This document shows, in pieces, positions 56,249-59,008 of a stretch of DNA of 64,000 nucleotides. Positions within the stretch are counted from its first letter, which is position 1. Each line of letters opens with the position of its first letter. Below the pieces are notes generated by a model. It was not told where the DNA came from. It saw only the letters and a program-made list of their open reading frames with translations, and did not search any database. Origin of the DNA: Pseudomonadales bacterium (GTDB lineage: Bacteria; Pseudomonadota; Gammaproteobacteria; Pseudomonadales; Azotimanducaceae). The stretch spans positions 1 to 64,000 of the forward strand of contig JADHNU010000004.1 in assembly GCA_016779325.1 (NCBI GenBank), written 5' to 3'. The translations under genes and the position numbers were made by a program.

Positions 56249-56274
56249 CAGGCACCGGCTTAGGCCGGTGCCTG
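56249..56274. terminator. Hairpin between SDR and UGSC genes (possible terminator)
   Basis: Perfect 11-bp stem CAGGCACCGGC / GCCGGTGCCTG with a 4-nt loop. The selenoprotein TAA stop lies in the loop. There is no clear T-run on either strand, so it may act mainly as an mRNA 3'-end stabiliser. Confidence 0.5.
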
Positions 56275-56787
56275 TAAGTTCCCCAGAATTTCCGCCCAGG
56301 CCGCTTCCGCCAGCGCTTCCATTTCCTCATCCGTTCGGTCCTGAATGGGATGCGGCACAAAGCATCGCCGGGCCGGAAAGGCGAGCGCTTCCGCCTGCAC
56401 TTCCGCCGCTTCCACAAAGGCCGAGGAGGCCAGGAAGGCACCGGGAATGCCGCGCTGATCAAGATCCCGCAGGTCATGCAGACTGCACGACGTACAAGAG
56501 CCTCAATCAGCCAGCGCTTCCAGCACCAAATCGCACTCGTCGGCAATCTGCTGACGCAAGGCCGTAGGCGCCGGCCGGGTGAAGGTGGGCTTGCTATAGC
56601 GCCGCACCGTCGCGCCTGCCGCCTTCAACTTCTCCTCCACGCGATTTAGAAAGACATCGCCCCGAGGCTTCGAGATATCCAAAAGCGCCACCACCTTCCC
56701 CTGCACGGACATCGGCAGGGCAAGGGGCGCCCGCGCCGCGGGACTGCTCTCCCCCGTGGGGTCCATCACCACAAAACTGGACGTCAT
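56260..56787 (-). CDS. UGSC-family selenoprotein (TGA decoded as selenocysteine at residue 95)
   Basis: 175 aa if the TGA at 56503-56505 is read as selenocysteine; a naive reading stops after 94 aa. Beyond the TGA the frame stays open for 80 sense codons and reads GSCTSCSLHDLRDLDQRGIP, then a segment ending AEILGNLQAPA and TAA. The U-G-S-C motif, the following SxHD, RGIP and FVPHPI stretches match the known UGSC-like (seleno)protein family, first reported from marine metagenome surveys, where other members have Cys in place of Sec. The ATG at 56787 is preceded by GAGGAGGG. A SECIS-like hairpin lies 11 nt after the TGA. U95, C98 and C101 suggest a redox role; the substrate is unknown. Last gene of the operon with the thioredoxin-fold protein. 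Confidence 0.85.
56473..56491 (-). other. Bacterial SECIS-like hairpin for the UGSC gene
   Basis: On the minus strand, GUCGUGC pairs with GCAUGAC (one G-U pair) around the loop AGUCU. The stem starts 11 nt after the UGA and the loop is about 18-19 nt from it. E. coli fdhF has the same 11-nt spacing and a G/U-containing apical loop read by SelB. The G-U in the loop fits that requirement. Confidence 0.7.
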
Positions 56788-56816
56788 CAAGCGCCCTCCT
56801 CTTTTGAACTCACCAC

Positions 56817-58226
56817 CTACAAACGAATCTCATGGGTCACGGGGCTGCTACCAATCGTTCCGCTCGCCCCCCAACCGCCAATCACGGCGGAAAACATGCC
56901 CGCTTCCCCACCGGCGCGCACAAGGCGAAGGCCGCCCTCGCGAAATTTCTCGAAGCTTCGCTTAGCCAGCGCCGGCGGCAAGCCCTCCTCCATGCCGCCC
57001 GCGCCGCGAATCAGTTCCGTGCCGGGCCGAGTCAGATCGGCCCGCAGGGCCGCCAGCACCTGCGCCTTGCTCCAGCCCGCGTCGTGGAAAACCCGCGCGT
57101 GCTCCGGGGAAATGACCAGGAAGGCGTCGGCAGCCTGAACCATCTTGGGGTGCGAGACCACCTTAAGGGCCTCCGCGAAGGATCGGCAGAGGGGCTCGGG
57201 GGTGCGAGCCTTTTGATCGACGATGCCCTGCACGCCGTCGGCCGCAAAGAGGGTAACGCTATTGGCGTTCCGGGCCAGGCCCGCATCCTCATTCAAGTTT
57301 TGCCATTGGGGATCGTCGTCTTCGGCAAAGCAAAAGGTGTATTTACCTGGGTTACCCAGGGTGGCGCGATCCACCCCCTGGGGACGGCCACCGCCGACAT
57401 TGCGAATCACCAGCTGCAGGGCCCGACCGATGGTGGCATTCGCCCGATTGCCCTGCCCCAGCGCGTTGCCCTTGCTGTTCATGCCCAGCGCCCGGGCGAT
57501 GGGGCCACACACCACCACCATGGGGCCAGAAAAATAGGTGGTCGCTAAAAGTCCGTGCATGCAGAAGGGCGGCAGCAAGGCAGCCTCCACGGTGGCCACC
57601 ACCACGGGAAGGTATTCGGGCTTGCAACCAGCCAGCACGGCGTTCACCGCAACCTTCTCCACGGTGACGGGCACGAGATTCGGCGGCACTTCGCCGAGCA
57701 CTTCCCTCGGATCGCGGGTGGTGCCCTCCAGCATGCGCGCCACGCGCTCCGGCGTCGGCGGCACCACAGGGAGGCCGTCCGTCCAGCCACGGTCAAAGAG
57801 GGCCTCCTGCACGTCCTCTTCCACCCCAAGGGTGATGCGGCGGGACGCTAAACGCTGGGCGCGGAGCCGCTCCCCATGGGGCGGTGTCACGGAAAGGGAA
57901 GCGCACCCGGGCCGCAGAGCCGGCAGGTCTGCCCCCAGGGCGCTATCGCCGACGAGGCCTTGCCAAGCGCTGCGCTCCCAGCCTTCACAGCGGCCCGTCT
58001 CGATCCCACCGTCGAAGGCAAGCAGCGCGGGCACGATTTCTATCCCCAGGTCGAAGGAACGCTCGAGACTGCCGTCGTACTCCACCCCCGGCACCGCGGG
58101 AAAGGCCGGGTCGTCCTGGGTGAGCAGCGTGACGTCGCCCCGGCCCGCCAAGGTCTCCAATACCGGGAGTACCAGCTGACAGGTGGGACAATCCGCCTTC
58201 ACCACCACGAGATACGATTGGCTCAC
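56817..58226 (-). CDS. Thioredoxin-fold protein with a large uncharacterised C-terminal domain
   Basis: 469 aa. The first about 75 residues are thioredoxin-like: YLVVVKADCPTCQLVLPVL (CPTC at about 13-16), then IVPALLAFDGG. The remaining about 350 residues form a domain I do not recognise, starting near GVEEDVQEALFDRGWTDGLPVV. It is Gly-rich and contains Cys residues (LAGCKPEYL, PPFCMHGLL, VVVCGPIARALGMNSKGNA) and a Gly-rich end (GGWGASGTIG). GTG at 58226 overlaps the kdsB stop (GTGA). It lies 29 nt before the UGSC selenoprotein gene, so it is the best candidate redox partner. Confidence 0.75.
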   Translation of the reverse strand: MSQSYLVVVKADCPTCQLVLPVLETLAGRGDVTLLTQDDPAFPAVPGVEYDGSLERSFDLGIEIVPALLAFDGGIETGRCEGWERSAWQGLVGDSALGADLPALRPGCASLSVTPPHGERLRAQRLASRRITLGVEEDVQEALFDRGWTDGLPVVPPTPERVARMLEGTTRDPREVLGEVPPNLVPVTVEKVAVNAVLAGCKPEYLPVVVATVEAALLPPFCMHGLLATTYFSGPMVVVCGPIARALGMNSKGNALGQGNRANATIGRALQLVIRNVGGGRPQGVDRATLGNPGKYTFCFAEDDDPQWQNLNEDAGLARNANSVTLFAADGVQGIVDQKARTPEPLCRSFAEALKVVSHPKMVQAADAFLVISPEHARVFHDAGWSKAQVLAALRADLTRPGTELIRGAGGMEEGLPPALAKRSFEKFREGGLRLVRAGGEAGMFSAVIGGWGASGTIGSSPVTHEIRL

Positions 58227-59008
58227 GAGCGATCCCCTCCAAGCTCGGCCCACTGCGCCTGCAAGCGGGCAAGGTCCTCGGGCGTATCCACGCCGCCGGG
58301 CACGGGCGCGCAGGCCGCGGCCACATGAATTGCCTCACCATAGGCAAGCACGCGCAGCTGCTCAAGGGATTCGAGGCGTTCGAGGGGCGCTGGGGGCCAG
58401 GCCACAAAGCGCTGAAGGAGGCCAACGCGGTAAGCATAAAGGCCCAGGTGCCGCCAAACCGGTGAGGGCAAAGCCTGCTCCCCTTGCGTTGCCGCCGCAT
58501 CCCGGGGCCAGGGAATGGGCGCTCGAGAGAAATACAGGGCGAGCCCCGCTTCGTTCATGACCACCTTCACCACGCTCGGATCTCGGAAGGCCTCGGGGGT
58601 GGTGATGGGCTCACAAAGCGTGGCCATGGCCGCGCCCGAGTGGGCGAGATTAGCGGCCACCTGCCGGAGCACGGCCGCGGGGACGCAAGGTTCATCGCCC
58701 TGGAGATTGACCACGATGGTCTCCGCGGCCCAGCCCCGCCGTCGCGCCACCTCTTCGATGCGGTCGGTGCCGGAGACGTGGTCCGGGTTGGTCAATTCCA
58801 CCTCCGCACCGTAGTCCCGGGCCACGGCTTCGATGCGCGCATCGTCAGTGGCAACGACCACGCTCTCGGCCCCCGCCGCCAGCGCGCGACGCCAGGCCTG
58901 GATCACCATGGGGGCATCCCCAAGCGGGGCCAGGGGCTTGCCCGGGAGCCGGCTCGAGCCATAGCGCGCGGGAATGACAATATGAAAGGGAACCTCAGGG
59001 CTTGCCAC
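58223..59008 (-). CDS. kdsB: 3-deoxy-manno-octulosonate cytidylyltransferase
   Basis: 261 aa. Nucleotide-binding IPARYGSSRLPGKPL, VVATDD, SGTDRIEEV, VNLQGDEP and YFSRAPIPWPRD are intact. Activates KDO as CMP-KDO for lipid A-core assembly, so the organism should make LPS. GTG start overlaps the exbD stop by 14 nt. lpxK, commonly between exbD and kdsB, is missing here. Confidence 0.94.
   Translation of the reverse strand: MASPEVPFHIVIPARYGSSRLPGKPLAPLGDAPMVIQAWRRALAAGAESVVVATDDARIEAVARDYGAEVELTNPDHVSGTDRIEEVARRRGWAAETIVVNLQGDEPCVPAAVLRQVAANLAHSGAAMATLCEPITTPEAFRDPSVVKVVMNEAGLALYFSRAPIPWPRDAAATQGEQALPSPVWRHLGLYAYRVGLLQRFVAWPPAPLERLESLEQLRVLAYGEAIHVAAACAPVPGGVDTPEDLARLQAQWAELGGDRS

Follow-up and report, generated by a model that had tools for sequence, protein, structure and literature searches.

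A UGSC-family selenoprotein gene and its constant partner in a Pseudomonadales bacterium: a possible thioredoxin-driven two-component reductase

We analysed a 64,000-nucleotide stretch of DNA, here called the window, from a Pseudomonadales bacterium of the family Azotimanducaceae (GenBank assembly GCA_016779325.1, contig JADHNU010000004.1, positions 1 to 64,000). On its minus strand, positions 56260–56787 hold what is almost certainly a real selenoprotein gene, a member of the already known UGSC family. We propose that its in-frame TGA is read as selenocysteine (Sec), and that its product and that of the gene directly upstream, the partner, form a thioredoxin-driven two-component reductase; we put the probability of this reading at about 0.6. 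Labels beginning with G, C, L and A denote genomes, contigs, loci and alignments.

An earlier note, made from the sequence alone, had proposed the selenoprotein, and the frame it described is present in full. The frame opens at ATG 56787, meets TGA at 56505–56503 after 94 residues, continues directly with GSC, and stays open for 80 codons to the TAA at 56262–56260, giving 175 residues on read-through. An AGGAGG read in the sequence at 56795–56800 (minus strand) is the likely ribosome-binding site. The predicted selenocysteine is codon 95, within the motif U95-G-S-C98-T-S-C101. The read-through protein matches PF24696 over residues 7–172 of 175 (E 7.1e-39, 134.1 bits against a cut-off of 25), as well as the NCBI equivalog NF041046, ‘UGSC family (seleno)protein’ (143.4 bits, cut-off 125), which bears out the family assignment. 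Likeness to this family extends over the whole length, including the UGSC motif and the invariant P10, K66, D105, F124 and H146-P147, and nothing essential differs; the window copy belongs to a subgroup whose partner is fused to thioredoxin (22 of 47 genes). A gene caller without recoding would return 94 of the 175 residues and end before the active site.

The family was found in 25 of 38 genomes of relatives and in 5 of the 398 genomes of a wider sample, our genome being counted in both. Among 53 matches in the 38 genomes, four are fragments and the remaining 49 span 146 or more of the 172 model positions. Exactly one TGA, always directly before GSC, is present at the same place in 48 of these 49, including the window gene; the exception, a G006 copy (L118:5004-5471), has S-E-C-S for UGSC, no Sec or Cys in the Sec position, and no partner found beside it. 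The note had also expected Cys to replace Sec, and this is seen in more distant copies, namely a G180 copy (L129, 42% identical) and in sequences from Burkholderiales (L133), Nonomuraea (L134), Nocardioidaceae (L135), Pseudonocardia (L136), and Natrinema and Arthrobacter (L193, L195). The Sec/Cys-GSC motif is kept in all 46 rows of alignment A1 (46 of the 48 Sec genes, the fused L097 and L117 being omitted) and in all 24 of A5, where the residues named above are invariant; A4 and A5 are hand-picked sets of 17 and 24 sequences. Between the window gene and four same-genus orthologues, the ratio of nonsynonymous to synonymous substitution rates (dN/dS) is 0.066–0.088 after the TGA and 0.087–0.115 before it, so that conservation downstream of the TGA, claimed from the sequence, is also found in the comparison.

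Other copies were noted in passing. The same genome has a second UGSC selenoprotein gene (G000:C6:18045-18551; L043, L095) of a GHUGSCTTG subgroup, with its own partner directly downstream, and same-genus genomes hold three or four copies. A gene in G314 (L128, contig C6) has Cys at the UGSC motif and, further downstream, a TGA in place of the Trp of its relatives, its N-terminal part being matched separately; it is likely decayed or affected by a sequencing error. The Arthrobacter Cys form (L195:5004-5816) carries a C-terminal extension of ∼90 residues with a CxxC.

We considered whether the TGA is a plain stop codon, with the open frame and hairpin behind it arising by chance. Six of the 14 window frames read as genes end in TGA, so the genetic code has not changed as a whole. 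Of 118 TGA-ended window frames of at least 90 codons, 19 stay open for at least 80 further codons in this GC-rich window, and 136 of its 1360 TGAs (both strands) are followed by a comparable stem of at least 6 bp resembling a selenocysteine insertion sequence (SECIS). Since such frames and stems are common, which is what favours a plain stop, the open frame and hairpin alone are weak evidence. The TGA is read as sense because homology spans it, 48 genes share it at this position, purifying selection acts on the codons behind it, and the hairpin codons described below are frozen; all of this supports the decoding claimed in the earlier note. Set against the family homology, the Sec/Cys exchange and the selection, a plain stop has next to no probability.

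The hairpin itself (56473–56491, minus strand) lies 11 nt after the TGA and has a 7-bp stem with the loop AGUCU (or 8 bp with the loop GUC), the five-nucleotide loop starting 18 nt after the TGA and the stem–loop having a free energy of −9.1 kcal/mol. It fits the bacterial SECIS model as given in PMC13188914, which specifies a loop of 3–9 nt, a stem of 4–16 bp, a G in the first two loop positions, a distance of 16–37 nt from UGA to loop, and a minimum free energy of at most −7.5. The gap, stem and loop described in the note thus hold, though as evidence the hairpin counts for less, given the 136 window TGAs that pass too. Fold z-scores are −4.8 (57 nt from 6 nt before the TGA), −2.2 (51 nt from the TGA) and −3.7 (81 nt). 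Within 22 same-subgroup genes, the commonest residues of the hairpin are each written with one codon at +5 (ACG, 15/15), +6 (TGC, 22/22) and +7 (AGT, 21/21), as is the residue just behind it at +11 (ACG, 16/16); positions +8 to +10 use two codons, and most other conserved residues before and after the hairpin use several. Across 21 distinct sequences (alignment A6, drawn from 32 genes outside subgroup C; the pair count omits the 15 subgroup-C genes, whose hairpin differs, and L117), 98.4% of the cells of the 6-bp core stem are paired. Two of the 21 sequences carry a two-sided change in one stem pair and three pairs never vary, so covariation is thin. In subgroup C the stem is shorter and of another form, and its loop contains GU.

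The partner gene (56817–58253, minus strand) encodes 478 residues if it begins at GTG 58253; GTG 58226, which shares a GTGA with the stop of the kdsB-like gene, is the likelier start. In 47 of 47 loci the UGSC gene has the partner beside it or fused to it, on the same strand in 46 (L097 being a single fused frame) and convergently in L072. With L117, where the two are divergent, this becomes 48 of 48 Sec loci, and the partner is present beside UGSC in nine more loci (L126–L129, L131, L133–L136). A partner profile search found both genes in the same 25 of 38 genomes, and all six plasmid records with a UGSC match also have a partner match close by. Five of the 18 other partner plasmid records (24 in total) were examined: a UGSC-family gene lies beside the partner in Roseovarius, Variovorax and Halalkalicoccus, and in Vibrio europaeus and Sporomusa UGSC is fused to the partner with MGTS for UGSC. 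Fusions are thus known in L097, L207 and L208. That a partner of an unnamed family stands beside or fused to every intact Sec/Cys UGSC copy examined is new here. A 2008 GOS paper reports UGSC fused to a domain ‘Unknown_1’, which may or may not be our partner.

In alignment A2, which comprises 43 of 48 partners (L075, L097, L108, L113 and L115, open-ended or fused, were omitted), the partner core has no Pfam or NCBIfam family match; some of the partners do match models, nearly all of them of thioredoxin type. The core conserves D159, R270, R277, K304, C308, E311 and H385 in all 43 sequences and C210 in 95%. PF09338, of the GrdE/PrdA kind, was not among the matches of these 43 partners up to E 0.01. 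Searching solved structures with the partner sequence profile returned two chance-level matches only. Fumarate hydratase and cyclic amide hydrolases appeared for the core as weak Foldseek rows (TM ∼0.2 with the partner model) and were rejected.

The N-terminus of the partner is predicted to form a thioredoxin-fold domain (57945–58253, minus strand; residues 1–103 of the AF2 model, thioredoxin matches with Z up to 9.1) carrying a CPTC motif at residues 22–25 (58179–58190). Only the thioredoxin part was listed in the VIA structure search of the partner model, and Foldseek returned thioredoxins for the N-terminus, while the window partner itself has no Pfam thioredoxin match. Of the 19 thioredoxin-bearing partners of A2, 18 have a CxTC in their first 60 residues, and the nineteenth (L088) has CPTC further on. 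Elsewhere the gene order is trxB-trxA-partner-UGSC in Arthrobacter (L195) and L135, trxA-partner-UGSC in Nonomuraea (L134), and partner-UGSC-trxB in Roseovarius; trxB is two genes away in Variovorax, and a pyridine-nucleotide reductase adjoins the UGSC gene of L131. The fusion of thioredoxin to the partner here is also new, as is the finding that thioredoxin or its reductase immediately adjoins the pair at four other loci.

UxxC is a redox motif, and PMC2398784 suggests a thioredoxin topology for UGSC; the window protein could then be an ordinary selenoprotein of thioredoxin fold, acting as a reductase of peroxides or disulfides, with the partner incidental. The AF2 model, built with Cys in the Sec place (pLDDT 91.8, pTM 0.85), instead predicts five alternating strand–helix units and lacks the thioredoxin topology, with residue 95 between a strand (87–93) and a helix (96–111). 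Structure searches with it gave flavodoxin-, receiver- and Rossmann-like folds, Foldseek returning generic α/β folds at TM by query of ∼0.3–0.5. As the partner also adjoins or is fused in all intact copies examined, we regard this alternative as rather unlikely.

We consider UGSC to be, probably, a distant relative of the Sec segment of GrdB and PrdB, and not a thioredoxin fold. A profile of 46 UGSC sequences aligned by hhalign with 22 GrdB/PrdB-like sequences (A3: 20 of 34 PF07355 matches plus L124 and L125) at E 5.6e-6 and 85.6% probability, and with a set including named GrdF, GrdH and PrdB at E 3.5e-6 and 87.6%, Sec falling on Sec (each a single comparison). The score of 50.5 compares with 21.5 for the best of 100 column shuffles and 19.7 for the reversed profile; with the four UGSC columns masked it is 35.3 (E 5.9e-4). 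These 100 shuffles were run in local mode; a separate control of 60, of which 59 were scored, used global mode. From the other side, a GrdB-type protein of Acetoanaerobium (L188) reaches PF24696 at E 6e-5 (23.7 bits, just under the cut-off), L137 at 0.0035, and two PrdB at 0.008 and 0.018. The UGSC protein did not match PF07355 (GRDB) up to E 1, and the PF07355 match of L137 and of L187 stops just short of Sec, which may be why Pfam holds no UGSC–GrdB link. The GrdB motif is UxxCxxC in PMC13188914; the window UGSCTSC fits it, and two other UGSC subgroups are without the last Cys. The link is a new result of this analysis; we did not meet it in the accessible parts of the UGSC literature, and we do not claim it as unpublished. 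Searching solved structures with the UGSC sequence profile returned nothing, and the structure-search rows listed include none named as GrdB or PrdB, which is no evidence against kinship. Relatives were seen to hold many PrdB-like selenoprotein genes (L138–L156), mostly VPVUPxC with TGA in frame and several with long C-terminal extensions, and G018 has a full-length Sec GrdB (L137).

The likeness to GrdB/GrdF/GrdH and PrdB (PF07355), the selenoprotein subunits of the glycine, sarcosine, betaine and D-proline reductases, comprises ∼90 aligned columns around and after Sec, the UxxCxxC motif, and a partner protein. It differs in that UGSC is without the N-terminal GrdB part, the partner is not recognisably GrdE/PrdA, and in our data the UGSC–partner pair comes chiefly from Pseudomonadota, actinobacteria and haloarchaea. 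Thioredoxin as electron source would be shared with glycine reductase, whose electrons pass from NADPH through thioredoxin reductase to thioredoxin according to PMC3091704. The same paper gives, for D-proline reductase, a presumed mechanism in which the selenocysteine of PrdB attacks the alpha carbon and a Cys resolves the selenoether.

By analogy, the UGSC–partner pair would have the parts of a glycine/proline-reductase-like machine, namely a selenol, a resolving Cys, a large second subunit and thioredoxin. With TGA 56505–56503 read as selenocysteine, the 175-residue protein would present a GrdB/PrdB-like Sec domain, formed by a β-strand, U-x-x-C at a helix start and a downstream HP motif, and would act in a physical complex with the partner, whose core would probably bind a small organic substrate. 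The U95 selenolate would attack this substrate for reductive cleavage or reduction, and Cys98 would resolve the selenium adduct to give a Se–S bond. The selenol would be restored by the thioredoxin domain fused to the partner, which would draw its electrons from NADPH by way of thioredoxin reductase. No pyruvoyl group is implied, because the partner is not recognisably GrdE/PrdA.

More broadly, and tentatively, at slightly below even odds, we suggest that the pair is a widespread branch of the GrdB/PrdB superfamily outside anaerobic amino acid fermenters, working as a two-component thioredoxin-driven reductase of a small organic substrate, with the donor here fused to the partner. Many of its named hosts are aerobes. 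If the suggestion is true, glycine/proline-reductase-like chemistry extends into aerobic life. With a fixed partner, an electron donor and a characterised superfamily, a ‘hypothetical selenoprotein’ becomes a testable enzyme.

The selenol and thiols may instead bind a metal or an Fe–S cluster, or the pair may be a scaffold. In the structure searches the UGSC model scored highest against chain H of 8S7V, which belongs to the MCR activation complex (Z 13.3 over 130 residues at 2.8 Å; the next row has 10.9), and the fused forms of Vibrio europaeus and Sporomusa do without Sec. The fold is a common one, however, and chain H, 13% identical to UGSC, is known here by its PDB label alone; we know of no Sec in it. 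Thioredoxin or thioredoxin reductase moreover accompanies the pair in several lineages, and we judge a metal site or scaffold in place of substrate reduction to be unlikely.

For the decoding machinery, the earlier note had called for a search of the sel genes, and this was answered in part. Contig C68 of the same genome has a complete selA (520 bits) and a 269-residue N-terminal part of selB that runs into the contig end (233.5 bits against a full-length cut-off of 242), so the note's refuting finding, a genome with no selB or tRNA-Sec, did not arise. Neither selC, the gene for tRNA-Sec, nor selD was found in this draft assembly (93.45% complete), nor in three of four other same-genus drafts, the tRNA-Sec searches having scored only 150 of 436 and 83 of 438 candidates. 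Of ten matches in our genome, the eight taken as loci were classed by ARAGORN as tRNA-Ser, -Gly, -Leu and -Tyr, including one over the cut-off; a selD-like match, C44, carries AIR synthase domains and probably represents ThiL. The fourth same-genus draft, G004, has both, a tRNA-Sec with anticodon TCA and a 754-residue SelD fusion frame. A fragment of selB lies within ∼1.5 kb of selC in three of ten selC loci tested (of 22), and none was found in the 6 kb around the G004 selC. As separate observations, SelD matches with one in-frame TGA occur in G015:C33, G022:C210 and G006:C37, where SelD is probably itself a selenoprotein, and other relatives have long SelD frames of 722–776 residues.

We read the missing selC and selD as an assembly gap, a reading and not a proof. 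The gene could be real and decaying, the genus having lost tRNA-Sec and SelD so that TGA is now a stop, as the lack of both in four of five genus drafts, ours included, would suggest; but dN/dS stays low after the TGA among genus members, selA is complete, selB breaks off only at the contig end, and G004 has both genes. Decay is therefore very unlikely.

Several results nonetheless weigh against decoding as Sec, kinship with GrdB/PrdB or a thioredoxin-driven enzyme, in addition to the absence of selC and selD from our draft. In the 4-kb stretch around the G004 selC, the first 1900 bases are without a match in our assembly (G000), and the rest has scattered 67–74% matches only. Among the four orthologues themselves, dN/dS is 0.048–0.147 after the TGA and 0–0.066 before it, and dS between the window gene and these orthologues is near saturation before the TGA. 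A strict SECIS stem test was passed by only 14 of 47 genes. For the kinship, a control with the partner profile, taken to be unrelated, gave a score of 23.9 with GrdB/PrdB, higher than any of the shuffles; the UGSC matches cover ∼80–100 columns at hhalign probabilities of 79–88%; PF24696 was not matched by L187, L189 and L190 (GrdB type) or L141, L143, L149 and L155 (PrdB-like); and the partner core gave no profile match to one GrdE-type sequence, GrdG (hhalign E 0.35). A trxA or trxB match occurs in the flanks of only L099 among the relatives' 48 loci, ∼3 kb away. Lastly, the MGTS fusions indicate that the UGSC module can exist without its redox residue.

Genes neighbouring the pair include a ComA-like synthase (in four), CoA-transferases, a TauD-type dioxygenase, an SDR, and tricarboxylate or TRAP transporters. 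These suggest small organic acids and no single substrate, and because neighbour clustering showed no fixed pathway we name none. The Sec-less fusions of Vibrio europaeus and Sporomusa termitida (L207:3323-5005, L208:3320-5041) lie near aconitase X and DUF126 genes.
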